A program made the position numbers and the translations under genes. 64,000 nucleotides of DNA from Malus domestica (taxonomy: Eukaryota; Streptophyta; Magnoliopsida; Rosales; Rosaceae). Below are positions 2,720 through 34,474 of the stretch, piece after piece. Within the stretch, counting starts at the first letter, position 1. Every line of letters begins with the position of its first letter. Below the pieces are notes generated by a model that was not told the origin of the DNA, made no database searches, and was given only the letters and a program-made list of their open reading frames with translations. Where the stretch lies: NCBI RefSeq assembly GCF_042453785.1, contig NC_091661.1, positions 27,829,501 through 27,893,500 on the forward strand, read 5' to 3'.

Positions 2720-4656
2720 TCAAGTAATCCGGGAGAGGCGTTCCTCACAATTTTCATAGCAAGGAGCTTTGACCGCGTGATTGAAGAAGTCTTCGGGCAG
2801 GAAATCGCGCATCATGATGGGGATGAACGATCTATGTGTCGAAATTTCATCATCTTCAACACGTTCACGTTGCTTTGAAGGTTGACAATAGCTGCTTTGC
2901 CCCCTTTCCGATTGAGGAGACGTATGCTTCTTGTGCAATTTCTTAGGAGTGACTTGAGTCCATCCTTCAACTTTGCTTGTCTTTGAGGTTGCCCCCAGCG
3001 GTTGCGGTGAAAACTTTGAGTTGGAAGAGCCAAAAGTGAAGGTGGTATAGTTTGACTTCGCCACTTCGTCAAGATCTAGCTCGATGATTCCTTTCTGAGC
3101 CAGCTTCATGATGAGATCTTTCAGCACGAAACATTTTTCTGTCGGATGACTGATGAAGCGGTGGAATTTACAGTACCTTGGATTGTAGGTGCGATTCATC
3201 TCTTCCGGCCGTCTGCACTCAGGCAAACTGATCACCTTCTTGTCCAACAGGTCATCTAGCATGGCAACCACATCAGAGTTGGGGAATGGATAAGTCTTCT
3301 CTTCAAGCTCCTTCAAAGTGCGTCTACGCGTCTCTTGATCACGAAAAGCTTCGGTTTGAATCGCCTTGCCTCGTGTGGATATTTTGACAGGAGATGTGTT
3401 GATCATCATCGCTTCCTTGGTGGGTTTCCAAGCAGCCTTTTCCACCTTTGTCCCAAGAACTTTGTCGTTCTTGTAGTCGGCGATCGGTTCTTTCTTCCCA
3501 TGATGGGCGATGCTCAACTCCATGTCATGGGCGCGAGTGGCCAATTCCTCGAAGGTCCGCGGTTTAATGCCTTGAAGGATGTATTGCAAACCCCATTGCA
3601 TGCCTTGGATGCACATCTCGATTGAAGAGGTTTCCGAGAGCCTGTCTTTATAGTCGAGGCTTAGAGTGCGCCATCTGTTGATGTAATCAATGACTGGCTC
3701 GTCCTTCCACTGCTTTGTGCTCGTTAGCTCTAGCATGCTCACAGCGCGGCGGGTGCTGTAGAAACGGTTGAGGAATTCCCGCTCTAATTGCTCCCAACTG
3801 TTGATGGACTCAGGCTCTAAGTCCGTGTACCACTCAAAGGCATTTCCTTTCAGCGAGCGCACAAACTGCTTGGCGAGGTAGTCTCCCTCCGTTCCCGCGT
3901 TGTTGCAAGTTTCGACGAAATGTGCAACGTGCTGCTTTGGGTTTCCTTTTCCATCAAACTGCATGAACTTTGGTGGTTGATAACCCATTGGCATCCTTAG
4001 GGCATCAATCTTCTTGGAATAGGGCTTCGAGTAGAACAAGGAGGTATGTGAGCTCCCTTCGTACTGTGCTTTGATGGTGTTGGTGATCATCTCCTGCAGC
4101 TGCTGGATAGAAAGAGATCCCATGAGTGCCGCTGCTTGGTCTGGCTCCGGCTTCCCATCGATTTTCTTCATCGGAGTTCTTCGTCTCCGCCAGCTCCTCC
4201 CTTTAGTGGATCATCCTCTGGGTCGGGTTTATCGCCGTCCTGCGCCTCCAGTCGGTTGACTAGTGCTGCAATTTGCAAGTCTTTTTCTTCCACAGTTCGG
4301 GTTAGCCTTGCGATTGCTTCATTCATTTGAGCCAGCTGCTCATCGATTGAAGTTGCTCCAATGGTCATGACTTGCATGGCTGAACTGTCGCTTGAATCGG
4401 CATCGGATAGCATGGATTCGGAGTATTTCCTTGGGCTTTCCCCCTTTGGTGCCCTTAGTGAGGCTAAGGTGATCGAAGGCTCGTGCCTTGGGTGCTTTTG
4501 TTCCCTTGGCAGAGTTGATGCAGAGGTGAAAGAGGCGGCAGACGTAGCTCTTGCCATGCTTCGAGTCGTGATGCCCAAAGTGACACCAGTTGCGACGATG
4601 ACGCTTTTATTCTTTGCGCCGGTTGCGGGAACAGTTTGAGTCTTCCTTGATGCCAT
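2720..4656 (-). mobile_element. LTR-retrotransposon gag-like region (fossil)
   Basis: The minus strand carries coding remnants typical of a plant Ty3/Gypsy-type gag: a retrotransposon-gag domain with the segments FEWYTDLEPESINSWEQLE and EPVIDYINRWRTL, preceded by a Ser/Thr-rich leader. No protease, reverse transcriptase, RNase H or integrase similarity was seen between this region and the left edge of the window. The element is therefore either truncated or one of the non-autonomous gag-only elements (TR-GAG type). It lies just inside an LTR at 4736-5630. Treated here as a fossil. Confidence 0.85.
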
Positions 4657-4735
4657 TAATTTTGGAAGTGCGCTTGAATTTCTTGAACGGAGAAAGAGAT
4701 GAGAGGCAGAGATTGTCCCACTGGGCGTGCCAATT

Positions 4736-5630
4736 TGTGAACACGGAAAATTCCTGAAACGAATGAGACAAGAACAACGTGCACAAACAAATATTTGTAT
4801 TTGATGATTTTGGGTTACAATCTCTCTCTATTTTGATCCTCTGATTCGATCTCCGTAAGGTGTTGATTGGTGGATGTTTTGTTGATCCAAGGGCCGTTGA
4901 TGCTTGATCTTGGATGAATAGTTGGAAGTTTCTTCAAAGGGCCGTGGGCTTGATCTTTGAAGGTGGATTTGAGCGGATCTTCAAGGAGCCGTTGGGACTT
5001 GATCTTGAAGAACAGTGATGAACGGATCTTCAAGGGCTTTTGGGCTTGATCTTGAAGAACAGTGATGAACGGATCTTCAAGGGCTTTTGGGCTTAATCTT
5101 GAAGAACGGTTGGATGTGTGTGGATTTGTCGACGTTGTTGATCCAAAGGGCCGTTGGGGCTTGATCTTGGATGAACGGATGATGAACGATGGTGCTTTCT
5201 TCAAGGGCCGTCGGGGCTTGATCTTGAATTGGTGGATGATTGTTGATCCAAAGGGCCGTTGGGGCTTGATCTTGGATGAACGATGAACGAAGAACGAAGA
5301 GAGCTTTCTTGATTCTTCGGGAACCTAGATGCTTGAGAGCTTCGGAGTTTCAGAGCTTCAGAGCTTCAAGGTGTAATATCAATTCGTCCCCTTAAATGAA
5401 TGAAATGGGCTTGTATTTATAGAATTTTCCAAGGCCTAACTTTGAATATAATATTCCAGATGAAATAAGTTGTTTCTGCCAGGTGTTGACACGTGTCCTA
5501 TTTGATGACTTTTCCAACTCATTTCAATTTTCGTTGAGTCACACGCTACGTGTAAAATTTATGTAATACATGAGCGTTGAAACTTTGATTTATCGGTCAA
5601 CATTTATTTACCGAAATTTCGATGTCTACA
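4736..5630 (-). mobile_element. Long terminal repeat of the gag-bearing element
   Basis: The block reads TG at its plus-strand left edge (TGTGAACACGG) and CA at its right edge (GATGTCTACA), giving an LTR of about 895 bp. Just inside it, on the gag side, is a primer-binding-site-like stretch (minus strand TTGGCACGCCCAGTGGGAC). Inside the LTR, 4900-5290 holds several imperfect ~50-bp tandem units built on the core CTTCAAGGGC/GGGCTTGATCTTG. No second LTR copy is visible before position 2700, so the partner LTR is outside the window or lost and age cannot be judged. Confidence 0.8.
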
Positions 5631-6748
5631 AGAATTTATAAATGCTCGTGATTTTAGGCGATGGTTACGTGGTCGTTTAGCTTTTTAAAACCCTCAAAAT
5701 CTCATGAATAATGTTTTTTATTTGAGTGCAAAATTAATAATAATTATTGTAGGAGAATGAAAAATGTAAAATAAATATACAACCATTCGTAATGACAAGC
5801 TTTACAACTTTCATGAAATGGTCAACTCCGAAATCAGACACCATAATCCATAAACCTTAGATTTAAATTTAACCATTGAATGTCATTTACGCTTTATTCT
5901 ACTTACCGAATTTTATTTTTAAGATTTTCATTATTTATTGATTTAAAACATATTTTCTTTAACGGGTAACAGATTGGGTCAAATTACTTGATAATATTAA
6001 CGGGTCAATTTCGGATCGGGTCATATTACCCATTTACTTTAACAGGTGTTACATGACATGACCTGTTAAGATATCAGGTATGTCATCAAAACAACACGAA
6101 CACAAAAAACACGACACGAATGTCAGATTTAGTCTGTACAACTAATTAGGGCTTAACTATGTTGTTGGGTCAATCAAGGACAAAACTATGTTGTTGGGCT
6201 GAATTTGCAAGCTCACTGGGCCCTCAAGTACGCAATGTTATTTCCCGCGTGGTAAAACGTGTTCCCGCCATAGCAGATTCCGGAAGTACAAATTAGGTTT
6301 TCACCATTTCCCATTATGCTAGGCTTTTCATCTCTCTCTCTCTCTCACTCTCTGTGCCAGTAGCGCTGCAATTCTTCCAGGGAATTCCTCTCAACCCTTT
6401 CCTACTTCCTAATTTTAAAACTCCATTTATGTATTTATTTTTCTTAATTTATGTTTTAGATTCTTAGACTTGGCACAAAACCGAGTCCAATAACGTTTTA
6501 AAGTTCATGCACGTAGTGGAATAAAGCTTAATTGTTATTGTTGTATGTTTTAGATTCTAAACATATAGCCGACCCACTTAGTTGGATAAAGGTTGATCGT
6601 TGTTGTCGTATGTTTTAGGATATAATTTTGATCATAAGATTCTCATCTGAGCAGTAAATATTCTTCGTTTTTATTAACTGATGTCATATAAAAGAGTATG
6701 GTTTTTTTCCCACTTCAGTGATTTTTCAACTAGATTGAGACAACGGCC
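5631..6748. other. Spacer upstream of F-box gene, with LINE-tail-like piece
   Basis: This AT-rich spacer has no gene. At 5960-6130 it has GGGTC/ACACGAAC-rich sequence of the kind found in plant TIR elements. At about 6535-6620 the plus strand reads GCCGACCCACTTAGTTGG followed by GTTG-rich sequence, like the 3' tail of plant RTE-type LINEs. A short CT run lies at 6331-6347. The last ~100 bp would be the 5' leader of the F-box gene. Confidence 0.45.
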
Positions 6749-14824: not shown

Positions 14825-15641
14825 TTCAATTTTGGTTGTTATTAACTTGACATTCTTGCAATGATGATAATTAATGGCGAGGATATCTCTCTACTTTATC
14901 CTATCTTCCGATTGGATCTTCCTATTGATATTTTATTTTATTTTATTTTTCTTTTAAATGATAAATGCCGTTGTTAACAAAGGGTCTTTTTCGACCCCTG
15001 AAATAATACTGGCCTAGGAAAGCCCCAAAAAAGGCCTAAGGAAAGAACATGAGACCAATCAAAGGGCTCATGAACTAGTCCAATAAAATTAGAGGAAGCA
15101 GCTCCTAGTGCAATAAACGACCACTTAATAGTCTGGTTTGACTTTTGTCAAGTAAGCTGAGCACATTACCATAAGGTATTTTCTGACCGCTTGAAGCAAA
15201 TTGTCATACTAACAACTTTATAGCACGGAGACAGGGACATGCCTACTCAAACACCAACCCTAAGCCACATGTTAAATATCAGCAAGGACAGAGGCTTATG
15301 AAGGGACATAAAAAAATGTCAGACCGAGTGCTTGAATTCCTCAAACGCATACGTATCTAGTTTTCAAACTAATTAACAATTAGATAAATGCACAATCGGG
15401 TTCAAATAATATTAGGCATCACTACGCTCTCCGAGTCCAAATACTGAAATGAATGAGCTTATCCAAGTTGGACCAAAATCAATTAAGCAAATCTTCACTT
15501 ATCCCAAAAATCTTAAATCCACTGCCACGAGTTTAATTTGAAGGATGTTTTTCTCTTTCATTTTGGAAAAAAGTTTGAAAGGATTGAAAAACCAAGGTTC
15601 ATCTGGAATATAAATAACGGTTGGTTTGCAATATTATCGAC

Positions 15642-15862
15642 TTGGACCTGGATTGTCTGCCATTCTCATCTTATACCCTTCCCAACCCCTCTTACTTCTG
15701 ATCACGGTTAAGTCACGTCAACATTTTATATTCTTATTGTTTTTTGTCTTATTATTTCTATAAAAAAATCAATATAAAATGTTAACGTGGCTTAACCGTG
15801 ACCACATAAATATGAGGAGATAAAAAGGGTATGAGATGAGGGAGGACAGACAATCCAAGTGC
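15642..15862. mobile_element. MITE family C, copy 1
   Basis: A 221-bp foldback element whose arms contain GGATTGTCTGCC (left) and GGACAGACAATCC (right), plus long subterminal inverted repeats (ATCACGGTTAAGTCACGTC and its near-complement at 15780-15808). Flanks carry TTATCGAC at 15634-15641 and 15863-15870, an 8-bp (possibly 9-bp with one mismatch) target duplication. A second copy lies at 26974-27183. Confidence 0.8.
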
Positions 15863-26973: not shown

Positions 26974-27183
26974 GGACAAGCATTGTTTGCCCTCTTTTTT
27001 TCCATGCCCTCCTGTTTGTGTGGTCACGGTTAAACCACATCAACATTTTATATTACTATTCATTTCTATCTTATTATCTTTATAAAAAAATAATATAAAA
27101 TGTTAACGTGGTTTAACCGTGATCACACAAAACAGAAAGACGTGGAAGAGCATGAAAAAAGAGAGGGCAGACAATTCTTGTCC
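26974..27183. mobile_element. MITE family C, copy 2
   Basis: A 210-bp foldback with termini GGACAAGCATTGTTTGCC and complement GGACAAGAATTGTCTGCC, the same family as 15642-15862. A perfect 9-bp direct repeat TTATTTAAT flanks it (26965-26973 and 27184-27192), indicating Mutator-type integration. The inner arms pair CACGGTTAAACCACATCAAC with its near-complement at 27100-27125. Confidence 0.88.
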
Positions 27184-27329
27184 TTATTTAATTAGATGAA
27201 AACGTCATTGACAATATACAGTGTACTCGTCATATAAGTTCTTTCTCCTAGATAATACTCAAGTATTATAACATACGACTTTTTTAATTTAGTCCAACAA
27301 ATACATCCTTCCAATTTCTTATTTTTAAA

Positions 27330-28160
27330 CAGTAATGTTATTCTTACCACATTAATATATCACATTAATGTACCACATTATGTGACATCTGATGTGGCTG
27401 TCCACATCATCTAAATTAATCATATTTTAATTTAAATTAAAAATCATTTAATAAACCAATAATAAATAAATAAAATATGGAATTAAATGATATTTGTGGC
27501 ATACGAGGAGTCTTCTTATTCCTTCCTTCCTTCCCCGTTGCACAACGAAGGTTTTCCAGTCGGCGAAAACATGAGAAGGACAATGTCAATGTCGCATAGT
27601 ATAGATAATTCATTAGCCTTTTTCATGATGCCATTCTTCCTTTTAGCATAAGTTGCTTGACGCCCATTTGTATTCTCCAACCCCTTAATTTTTAGCTTTA
27701 CCCTTCCCATCCTGCACTTTGGACCGCGAATCTTACGCTTGAACTCCCCTTCTTTGACAGTCCAAAATATCGAAAAGCCTACCCAAACACAAAAACCAAT
27801 AATTTCTTCATCACAATCTATCCAAATAGGGGATCATCGATGAATCTTTGTTGTATGAGAATTAGTTGAGATTGTGGTATCCACACTAACGTGAAAAAAT
27901 TTGGGCTGAAACAAAAAAAATGGTGTGGAAGAAGAAACGGGAGAAGAAGCAACGGGGAAGGAAGGAAGGAATAAGAAAGACTCCTCGTATGCCACAAACA
28001 TCATTTAATTCCAAATTTTTTTATTTATTATTGATTTATTAAATGGTTTTTAATTTAAATTAAATTATGATTAATTTAGATGACGTGGACAGCCACATTA
28101 GATGTCACATAATTTGGTACACTAATATGGTATATTAATGTGGTAAGAATAACATTACTG
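27330..28160. mobile_element. Mutator-like element carrying a MADS-box exon (Pack-MULE-like)
   Basis: An 831-bp element with very long terminal inverted repeats: 27330-27541 and 27949-28160, about 212 bp each, starting CAGTAATGTTATTCTTACCA. A perfect 9-bp target duplication ATTTTTAAA lies at 27321-27329 and 28161-28169. The ~407-bp interior holds no transposase; instead it contains the first coding exon of a MADS-box gene (27542-27710, minus) and about 238 bp of what looks like its 5' leader. This matches the definition of a Pack-MULE, a non-autonomous Mutator-like element that carries host gene pieces. The TIRs are still highly alike, so the insertion is fairly recent. Confidence 0.9.
27516..27710 (-). 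pseudogene. Captured MADS-box first exon (MIKC*, AGL30/65-like)
   Basis: The open frame from ATG 27710 encodes 64 residues. The first ~56 form a nearly complete MADS DNA-binding domain (MGRVKLKIKG, LENTNGRQATYAKRK, GIMKKANELSILCDID, VLLMFSPTGKP). From about residue 57 the frame runs into the element's left inverted repeat and stops. The sequence is most like the MIKC* MADS proteins (AGL30/65/94-type), pollen-expressed regulators. There are no I, K or C regions, so it is not a full gene, though the frame through the MADS domain is open. A product could be a short DNA-binding peptide, or transcripts could feed small RNAs against a parent gene; both are inference. Confidence 0.85.
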
Positions 28161-28298
28161 ATTTTTAAATTCAAGAAAAACTAAATAATGTCCATTATTT
28201 AATAAAATATGTGTCAAAACAAAAAGTGAGGACTGACGTTATTGACATCAGCTGCTGACGCTTGGAAAAGTTTTCTTTGATTCTCCTCCCACCCACGC

Positions 28299-28393: not shown

Positions 28394-30162
28394 ATGAACA
28401 ACAACAAAGGCAAAGCAGTCGCCGTCTCAAGCCCCAACGTCAACGACATCGACGACGACGACGACGGCAACGGTAACATCAGCGAAGACGAATTGGACGA
28501 CGACAACAACAGAAGCAGTGGCTTCTCTTCCACTTCCATCAGATTCTCGTCCCGCAACACTTCCTCCAAATACGACTTCGTCAAGGTTCTCCGTTTTATT
28601 CTGACCCAAATAACAAAGATTCTTCATTTCTGTTTGGTTCCCGAGAAAATGATTCAGAAATCGAGTATCTTTTCTGTTTTGGTCATCAGGTGAAGGTCTG
28701 GCTGGGTGATAATGCAGACCACTACTACGTTCTGTCCAGATTTTTGCTCAGTCGAATGTTGACTGTCACCAAGGTATCGATTTCAGTCGACCCAATTCAG
28801 TATTTTGATTCAGCTGTTTGTTTGTTTTTGGCAAATTGTAATGGTTTTGATCATGTTATTTAGTGTGAATTTTTGGTGTGGTGATTTGCAGATCCCGAAT
28901 TATGTAGCGATTAAAATAGCGCTGGAGCTCAAGAAGTTGCTGATTGACAACAGCCTGCTAGATGTGTATGCTGTCTCCACATTGATTATGTTTTGTTATT
29001 CTGATGTTTCTTGTTGTTTTGGTTGGATTTTTATAAATGGGTTCACTTTTGGGTTCGCCTGATGTGTTGCAGTTCGCAGTCCGATTTGGAAGTGAATTTG
29101 TTTAAGGTAATGTCGTATGCTTGTGTAGTTGTCGGAAAAGTAGTGCACTTTGCAAACTTTCTAGATGCTGAATGAGTTCATGCTGTATGTGTAGCTTATG
29201 GAACGAAGGGGTTATGGGGAAGAGTACATAAATCGGTACAAGATGATGACCAGGTCAGTCTAAAATCTATGTACTCTTAGGAAGTGCCTAGAAACCGAAT
29301 AAACAAAAGATCGTAAATTTTACTAAATTAATACTGATACCAGTTTTTTTCTTTGGTGGGACAAATTCTTACAGATTTCACCATCAACGAGTGCCTTTAG
29401 TTATTCTTGTATGTGGAACTGCCTGTGTTGGAAAGTCGACCATTGCTACCCAACTCGCACAAAGACTAAATTTGCCTAATGTCTTGCAGGTTCTAATATT
29501 TATCATCTCTCTCTCTCTCTCTCTCTCTCCCAACTTTTTTTCAAGGTGCACAGAGATGTCTTTGATATTTTCAATTGATCCTCTGTTTCCTGTGTAACTG
29601 TTACAGACGGATATGGTATATGAATTGCTGCGCACGGCAACAGAGTAAGTTCCAATTTCACACATTTCCTTTGTTTTTCATTTGAATGTACACAAAAAAA
29701 TAGTTTGCAAAAGAATAGCGTGTCCTATGTTAAGCTGATTAGTTATGGTTGTGTGTAAGTCTTTTGTTTTGACGAACGATATTAGAATGCTTATTCTCTC
29801 TTTTTATCCAATTCAGTGCACCGTTGACATCTACTCCTGTATGGGCACGAGATTTCAGCTCCTCTGAGGAATTAATTACTGAATTTTGTAGGGAATGCAG
29901 GATTGTCCGTAAAGGTAATGTCTTTATTAATCCATCTGCTGAGATGTGCCAGATGACTACTTTTGAAGTTATAACATTGAGAAATTAGAAATATCTCTTT
30001 GGCTGGTGTATTGATCAAAGTTCTGAAACATGTGTTTACCAGGATTGGGTGGTGATATGAAGAAAGCTCTGAAAGATGGAAAGCCAATAATAATAGAGGT
30101 GTGTTTATTATTAACATTCATGGATCACAATCGCATTGTAACTTACTTTTGTCCTCTCAAAG

Positions 30163-32553: not shown

Positions 32554-33479
32554 ACTGCATTGCAATGTTAGCTGACGGCTGGTATGAGTTGGACGTCCAT
32601 TGTTTTGATCTATATGATACATAGATTCGTATTCATTGTTTTTTCTTTAAACGTAATCATTACATGGAAAATTCAATGAAATTTATATTGAAGAAAAAGT
32701 TGCATATTATCAGTCTGATTCTGAACTGTTGTGCTCTATAGATATTGTAAAAGGGGGAAAAGATGATGGTAGAGGTAAAACAAACACGAAAAATATTATG
32801 CTCGTCACCAACTTTACATTCATTCGTTTGTGCTTAAATTCATTCCTTGATGATATCTGCTTGTGATTCACATAGAGCTGGAGAAAAGAACCAGTAACGG
32901 TATTGAAACAGTGATCGGCTGGACGATATAGATCAAATGTCGGGAAACAAAACGGAGAACAAATACTTACAAGCACCTTTGCAGCAGCGGCCGCAGCAGC
33001 TTGCAAAACAAATTTCTACTTGCATTATTTGTTCTTCGATACGAGATGCCAGACTTCAACTAAATGCAGCCTCTTTAACGCGTCCAAGACTTCTCCAAAA
33101 TTCAATTTTTCGATACAGGACACTAAATTTCGGGCTTGGGAGAATCTTGCTGGCATGCAAAATCAGTCAATAAGTTGTTGTCTTCGTAGTGTTCGTATAA
33201 CTTAAGGGATCCTGTTTTGAATATAATGGTGTTCTTAACCACTTGTTCGATGGTCGACACATTATTTGGACTGCTTCAGTTGTATGTGCATCTTCTTTGC
33301 CTTTTCTCTGTATATACAAACAAGGAGACGCAATAAATTGTCTGTCGATTAATGCTAGGGATATCACATATTTGTAGCACATTTTGATACCGCATGACGT
33401 GGCATGATGCATTCAGAGGAATGCCAAAGGTAACCTCGTATTAATACCACATGATATGGTGTGTGATGTATTCATATCC
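32554..33479. other. Spacer between LPA1-like and AKR fragment
   Basis: No gene that I can support. Overlapping open frames of 61-98 codons on both strands at 32710-33205 have no recognisable domain. Near 33385-33470 two diverged copies of a short inverted motif (GCATGACGTGGCATGATGCATTC and a relative) mark where the aldo-keto reductase similarity ends. Confidence 0.4.
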
Positions 33480-34006
33480 CGTGATTTTAGCGACGTGACT
33501 GTTACACCGCATAACTTAGATGTCACAAAAAATGTCTTCCCTCTTTGCATTGCCTCTGTCAAAGCGTTTCCGAGAGCTGGCTCCAAACCATATATCTTTG
33601 CCGTGTCGAAATGCCTGTAACCCATCTGCATCACTCAACCATGCATTAGTTTCAAGTAGTTAAGAAGAGTTATACATATACTCGAAATCCTAATTTTGGT
33701 TTGTCCCTCCCATGTATCGCTTGTATAAAAAAAAGTATATGAAAAGGAGTGGAGAGAAGATAACTGTTGTGTCGCTAGAGTATATCTCCTTGTGGCTCCA
33801 ATGCTGAGTATTGTAGACACAAAAAGATATATTTCCGGTTGTACAAGAGATTCTCTTGTGTGTGTGCGCGCGCGCAGGGTTTGTACCTTGAGGGCCATAT
33901 GGACAGCAAGTTCTATTGTTTTCCTATCGTTTTGGAAGGAATAAGTGCCTGACCCAATGGCAGGCATTGTAATTCCACAATTCAATCGAACCTGGTTGCT
34001 CCTCAT
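33480..34006 (-). pseudogene. Truncated aldo-keto reductase (AKR4-like) gene
   Basis: Exon 1 (34006..33887, 40 codons) encodes the family N-terminus (LNCGITMPAIGSGTYSF) and is followed by a proper GT donor. Exon 2 starts at 33625 after CAG and gives GYRHFDTAKIYGLEPALGNA, containing the catalytic-site Asp and Tyr region (FDTAKIYG), then FVTSKL. After that (about 33510) the similarity stops. The usual codons between ALTEA and FVTSKL are shortened, and the rest of the (alpha/beta)8 barrel, about 240 residues with the catalytic Lys and His, is not found down to 32700. Relatives are plant NADPH-dependent reductases such as codeinone- and methylecgonone-reductase-like enzymes. The start and TATA box look intact. 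Confidence 0.85.
33855..33877. repeat. (TG)n(CG)n alternating purine-pyrimidine tract
   Basis: The plus strand reads TGTGTGTGTGCGCGCGCGCA over about 22 bp just inside the intron following exon 1 of the AKR fragment. Such tracts can adopt Z-DNA in vitro. Confidence 0.6.
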
Positions 34007-34100
34007 CTTTCTTTCTCTCTCTCTCTCCCTCTCACTCTCACTCTCACTCTTTCTACTTTCTATCTGGTATGTGTGTTTCTCAATGCAAATATGGCTCCTT

Positions 34101-34107
34101 TTATATA
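34101..34107 (-). promoter_or_regulatory. TATA box of the AKR fragment
   Basis: The minus strand reads CTATATAAAAGG, a strong plant TATA box, about 95 bp upstream of the ATG at 34006. A CT-rich leader (34011-34050 on the plus strand) lies between. It suggests the truncated gene may still be transcribed. Confidence 0.65.
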
Positions 34108-34474
34108 GAGACATCACCAACAATGTCAAACATTTTAAACTGTTTTCTTAATCCACTTCAAACCCATAAAATATGTTTTAAAATTAATTAAACTTGTTTA
34201 TTGGAGAGCTAATGACATCGAAATATATACAAAATCAAGGCATGGGAGATCTTCCATGTCTCTAGGGATTTTTCATGAAATGGCAAGACTTAGCTGTACA
34301 TAAAATAAAAGGAAATTATATTATTTTTGAAAAATATTGTGCAAAAGTCAACTAATATATTATATATGCATGTGGGTCACCATTAAAGCAACAGTTGCTT
34401 CTATGAACAACAGGTGTTACCTCCTCCTACCTTTCTCTCAATCTCTATCATCCTTTCGCTCAAGCCAATGAGGA

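Follow-up and report, generated by a model that had tools for sequence, protein, structure and literature searches.

Gene-carrying Mutator-like elements, or Pack-MULEs, have been described in rice, tomato, Arabidopsis and maize, and share, according to PMC3310237 and PMC8277862, a non-autonomous structure with long terminal inverted repeats (TIRs), target site duplications (TSDs) of 9–11 bp, a gene fragment and copies with distinct TSDs. Elements of this type number more than 3000 in rice, according to PMC8903248, and 220 and 46 in tomato and Arabidopsis, respectively, according to a table in PMC3310237. The tomato PM-ZIBP family, as described in the latter source, is a dicot Pack-MULE with a single-TIR form of 944 bp and a parent in the same genome. 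Pack-TIR elements attributed to template switching (gap-filling/FoSTeS) show short microhomology at their capture joins in the sections of PMC8277862 devoted to them, whereas FAR1-domain MULEs encode transposases with FAR1, MULE and SWIM domains. For the Rosaceae, PMC11197308 (Rosaceae transposons) and PMC6355818 (Prunus mume) hold the word Pack-MULE once each, and a MADS-carrying Pack-MULE in apple was not found among the titles and abstract openings of the literature matches listed.

The window analysed here is a stretch of 64,000 nucleotides of apple DNA (C1:27829501-27893500), and the genome searched comprised 651 Mb in 19 contigs. Self-alignment of the window placed a left TIR at 27330-27541; the right TIR, at 27949-28160, corresponds to the 5' side of the transposase gene in a relative on C5. 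The repeats measure 212 bp each and agree in 200 of 213 aligned columns; direct reading found ATTTTTAAA on both flanks, at 27321-27329 and 28161-28169, as a perfect 9-bp direct repeat (none of these four features carries a strand). Both the long inverted repeats and the perfect duplication had been claimed in an earlier sequence-only reading of the window, and both were confirmed. Six-frame reading showed no transposase of the element's own. With its 212-bp inverted ends, 9-bp duplications at both of its copies, no own transposase, ends related to those of the C5 MULE-transposase element and a host-gene fragment whose parent lies elsewhere, the element is, as judged from its sequence, a non-autonomous Mutator-like element and a genuine Pack-MULE. 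It differs from the Pack-MULEs of rice, tomato, Arabidopsis and maize in its apple host, in its number of only two copies and in belonging to one TIR family with two segments of one parent. It resembles PM-ZIBP as a dicot element with its parent in the same genome, but lacks tandem TIRs and carries a different gene (PMC3310237). Gene-carrying elements of this sort are already known, and the distinctive point appears to be the presence of two pieces of one gene in one family.

When the genome was searched with the 407-bp interior, one other full-length match was obtained, at C14:7580163-7580569, with 98% identity. This copy spans C14:7579948-7580850 (locus L023) and is flanked on both sides by TAGAAAAAC, its own perfect 9-bp duplication, and therefore moved as a unit; the recurrence of the whole element with a different duplication of its own rules out chance or a plain hairpin as the origin of the window element. 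The C14 copy is longer by about 70 bp adjoining its left repeat, and no match to the C5 transposase was found in its locus. The left repeat of the window element showed 94–95% identity to the C14 copy's ends; the corresponding value for the right end of the C5 element that bears the transposase was 93% over 205 bp.

The MADS-derived share of the interior was found to be 286 of about 407 bases (27540-27825, minus strand, from alignment to C16), of which 115 bp are leader and 171 bp belong to the first exon of a MADS gene presumed to be of the MIKC* type. The parent of this segment is the MADS gene at C16:4883390-4883677 (97% DNA identity), with a homeolog at C13:4607091-4607375 (92% identity to the captured segment), so that the outcome of a single-copy interior with no parental gene did not occur, and the proposal of a Pack-MULE that carries the first exon of a MADS gene, probably of the MIKC* type, was supported. 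The window element differs from the C16 parent by seven substitutions and one indel over 286 aligned bases, and the C16 parent from its C13 homeolog by 18 substitutions and two indels over about 286 bp; the smaller number of changes in the former comparison (7 vs 18) indicates that the capture is younger than the homeolog split. Five substitutions are common to the C1 and C14 copies against both parents, while private substitutions number four in the C14 copy and none in the C1 copy. C13/C16 is one of the related-locus pairs met in the genome, along with C6/C14, C1/C7, C5/C10 and C8/C15. The C16 parent locus has further exons downstream that are also conserved in a MADS paralog on C14, and these we take to resemble those of Arabidopsis AGL30; the parent would accordingly be an AGL30-like gene of the MIKC* type. 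The source of the captured exon is probably a MADS-box regulator gene of pollen; AGL30 in Arabidopsis acts in pollen as a heterodimer with AGL66 or AGL104, according to PMC2258202. A remnant of the same TIR family beside the parent was considered as the cause of the capture and rejected, with no match (E ≤ 0.1) in 9.9 kb around each of the two parents. Elsewhere, a MADS exon at C8:21264142-21264318 (L049) is close to an exon on C15 (L047) but has an in-frame TGA, and is possibly a pseudogene.

The earlier claim that the interior holds only the MADS exon and its leader proved to be wrong, for 27826-27948 is element sequence common to the relatives. The whole-element genome search gave 449 candidate places, 40 of which were scored and yielded at least 121 matches. 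The transposase-bearing relative (L027, about C5:4858362-4865888, read outside 4858611-4860999) resembles the window element by 93% over 205 bp in its right arm and by 163/187 (87%) in its left arm, and ATTAACAGCG lies beyond both of its ends, as 9 or 10 bp depending on the placement of the left end. Its 798-aa stop-to-stop frame matched FAR1, MULE and SWIM in Pfam, with E values of 2.9e-13, 3.2e-36 and 3.3e-6, respectively, and exon 2 of the transposase is read as joining this frame. The C5 element is thus like the FAR1-domain MULEs in its domains and has ends similar to those of the window element, which is without transposase. The right join was compared in 12 rows from 10 relative loci, and in 10 of the 12 rows ATCCAAATAGGG (with small variants) was preceded by native element sequence; these rows represent eight loci (L024, L027, L032, L033 twice, L034 twice, L037, L038 and L039), and the rows from L035 and L036 showed no match at that point. 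On the minus strand, the relatives read TATTG/GTA... at this join, which is splice-donor-like (TATTA/GTA in one row), with GTAAGC in 6 of the 10. In the C5 relative, two exons of the transposase, in the same orientation, come after the splice-donor-like site, and together these features led to 27826-27948 (minus strand) being read as a MULE-derived subterminal block that would represent the 5' untranslated exon of the transposase gene. The MADS leader may accordingly be interpreted as fused in sense to this MULE exon, the putative order on the minus strand being MULE end (with a putative promoter), MULE 5' exon, MADS leader, MADS exon and MULE end. The right capture junction (27820-27825) has 6 bp, ATCCAA, common to the parent gene and the MULE relatives, and the left one (27539-27541) has 3 bp, TGC, common to parent and MULE, neither with a strand; the 3-bp microhomology is probably not far from chance level.

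The best explanation, and one that we hold with high confidence, is a two-copy Pack-MULE whose MADS segment would have been copied from the C16 gene by template switch before the element moved to C1 and C14. In a progenitor akin to the C5-type FAR1/MULE element, a break or gap may have arisen near the first exon of the transposase gene, repair would have switched template to the C16 MADS gene at the short common words ATCCAA and TGC, and the leader and exon 1 would have been copied before a switch back to the MULE; the product, with intact ends, would then have been moved to C1 and C14 by a MULE transposase as the putative mover. Short microhomology at the capture joins is shared with the Pack-TIR elements treated in the relevant sections of PMC8277862; those are animal elements, and for the window element it is the joins that point to the mechanism. 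The locus is of value as a well-dissected gene capture in a dicot, with the parent, its homeolog, a second copy, a transposase-bearing relative and both joins in one assembly.

A middle segment of the same MADS gene was also found in elements with these ends. The parent locus (L021) was searched in the stretches 1700-2900, 2900-4000 and 4000-5700, and positions 2951-3931 recurred at three other sites (C16:38602974-38608849, C5:20654427-20657772 and C15:31356495-31357532), with inverted ends of the same type on both sides in the C16 and C5 places and one inverted end among the scored matches in the C15 place. Positions 1700-2900 matched in the two parents only, and positions 4000-4890 at no loci other than the parents and the paralogs on C6 and C14. 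The C16 element, which is the one of these that was read (L051, C16:38602600-38609300, 6.4 kb), carries MADS exons with splice-like sites, in sense, between its right arm and transposase exon 2. A separate feature of L051 is a 65-bp MADS piece in both inverted arms, which shows that captured host DNA is now part of the inverted repeat. The exon-1 and middle-segment elements could in principle descend from one extensive capture of the MADS gene that deletions later split, as both segments come from the same parent with the same homeolog nearer; this is unlikely, however, since the stretch searches found no element holding the part of the gene between the two segments, and since the arm tree (3 of 27 inner branches well supported) places the exon-1 copies with the right end of the C5 element and L051 with its left end (88/77, 96/79). 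Additionally, substitutions relative to the parent amount to 7/286 for the exon-1 segment and 48/872 for the middle one (P = 0.037), the latter counted in L051 alone, with gaps excluded and an overlapping arm piece with 10/141 left out. The lack of intermediates, the arm tree and the unequal divergence from the parent favour two captures, the last two being modest evidence, and the middle segment is probably a second, separate capture of the same gene by the same MULE end family. A bolder version makes the MIKC* gene a capture hotspot: two non-overlapping segments of it would have been taken up separately by a FAR1-type MULE family, each in sense and each into exon 1 or intron 1 of the transposase gene, supposedly because gene and family are both active in the male germ line. 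The pieces would then be driven by the promoter of the transposase gene and might silence a regulator of pollen; this version was considered quite improbable. If one family did capture one gene more than once, as appears to be the case, it would become possible to ask what renders a gene prone to capture.

As for the consequences of the insertion, the MADS frame starts with an ATG at 27710 on the minus strand and runs for 64 codons to a stop inside the left repeat (27516-27710, stop included), giving 57 MADS-domain residues and seven from the repeat, with a Pfam match to SRF-TF (E 8.5e-22) and 95% identity to the C16 gene product over 60 residues. The sequence-only reading was right that the frame runs into the inverted repeat, and its tail of about eight repeat-encoded residues is corrected to seven. 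It had also suggested a dominant-negative-like peptide, and such a product, of 64 aa (87 aa in the C14 copy), could interfere with MIKC* dimers, given that the frame is open in both copies and that three of the four coding changes on the element lineage are silent, which is below the neutral replacement share, albeit with n = 4 only. Nevertheless, the sole replacement, R10G, removes the basic residue 10 in both copies, a position that is R or K in all eight non-element MADS loci read (the best 8 of 128 non-element matches). The tails are unlike between the C1 and C14 copies, the interval from the right repeat to the ATG contains the starts of two short upstream ORFs (8 and 10 codons), and the region downstream of the MADS domain, which plant MADS proteins require for dimer binding, is missing. 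The lost residue, the missing domain and the upstream ORFs made the suggestion less likely; a working DNA-binding peptide is unlikely, and interference by it with MIKC* dimers is a very improbable outcome.

Less improbable, though still unlikely, is action in trans through hairpin or antisense transcripts giving rise to 21–24-nt RNAs that would lower the AGL30-like parent, mainly in pollen. The element ends form 212-nt arms, and of the 266 21-mers of the captured segment, 147 match the C16 parent locus exactly and 64 its C13 homeolog, with none matching any of four other MADS loci tested, so that small-RNA action, if it occurred, would be specific. Gene-carrying elements including Pack-MULEs are described as siRNA reservoirs in maize in a 2026 review (PMC13317346). 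In a hairpin of the ends alone, however, the MADS segment would sit unpaired in the loop, in one orientation, and its pairing would call for an RNA-dependent polymerase or for transcription in antisense. An effect in cis on the promoter of the downstream gene, as the main consequence, is somewhat harder to credit and was thought unlikely. That gene starts at 28394 on the plus strand (first coding exon 28394-28585, its end judged by eye) and is presumably LPA1-like; Pfam gave no clear family for its pieces beyond P-loop kinase-type matches for one exon. The element stands directly upstream of its 5' end, and the distance of about 235 bp given earlier was borne out, at 233 bp before the ATG. Promoters are present in maize MuDR ends, and Pack-MULE ends drive their own interiors, in the portion of PMC3310237 dealing with expression. 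Against this, the upstream region of the C7 homeolog is too diverged to serve as a control: no element match was seen in the 901 bp read there, and the idea of an empty site at that locus was dropped, as the upstream DNA hardly aligns and no clean empty site was seen. C7 carries two LPA1-like copies about 5 kb apart (C7:32379764 and C7:32384748); one exon match of the second contains an in-frame TAG. At present the element would most likely be a passenger that is silenced or transcribed at a low level, and not a supplier of active protein; its RNA may enter small-RNA pathways directed at the MULE family and perhaps at the AGL30-like parent.

The remaining relatives of the element were characterized to a lesser extent. 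Target duplications were checked in 13 relative loci at unrefined ends, and an exact 9-bp end repeat was found in six of them (L023, L024, L028, L029, L038, where it is A-rich, and L039). L051 presented a 9-bp repeat once one end was shifted by a base, the flanking repeat of L032 was A-rich and ambiguous, and L030, L031, L033, L034 and L035 showed none at the given, unrefined ends. Of six relative frames compared with Pfam, one alone gave a match, to DUF1685 in L035 (E 5e-05); this piece in turn matched sequence on C10, C5 and C13. The interior of L040 had matches on C15 (94%) and C8 (88%) and none in Pfam, and by eye might be taken to resemble PPR. The C5 element (L027) holds host-like DNA in its presumed first intron, common to L024, which matches C2 (94% for the L024 copy) and C15 (79%); this C2-matching fragment showed no clear coding frame and is hence described only as host-like DNA. 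A scan for promoters and terminators, based on a bacterial consensus, returned chance-level counts and was set aside. A sense bias of the captured pieces was likewise discarded, since every piece enclosed by inverted ends reads in sense from one of the two sides; orientation is informative only in the asymmetric exon-1 element and in the right arm of L051, and no bias is claimed. Within the window, minus-strand open frames at 33413-34129 resemble those of an aldo-keto reductase gene. Immediately to the left of the element, at 27005-27183, lies a MITE-type inverted repeat with 46-bp arms (89%), the relatives of which were found at 15641-15860 of the window and near the C13 MADS gene.
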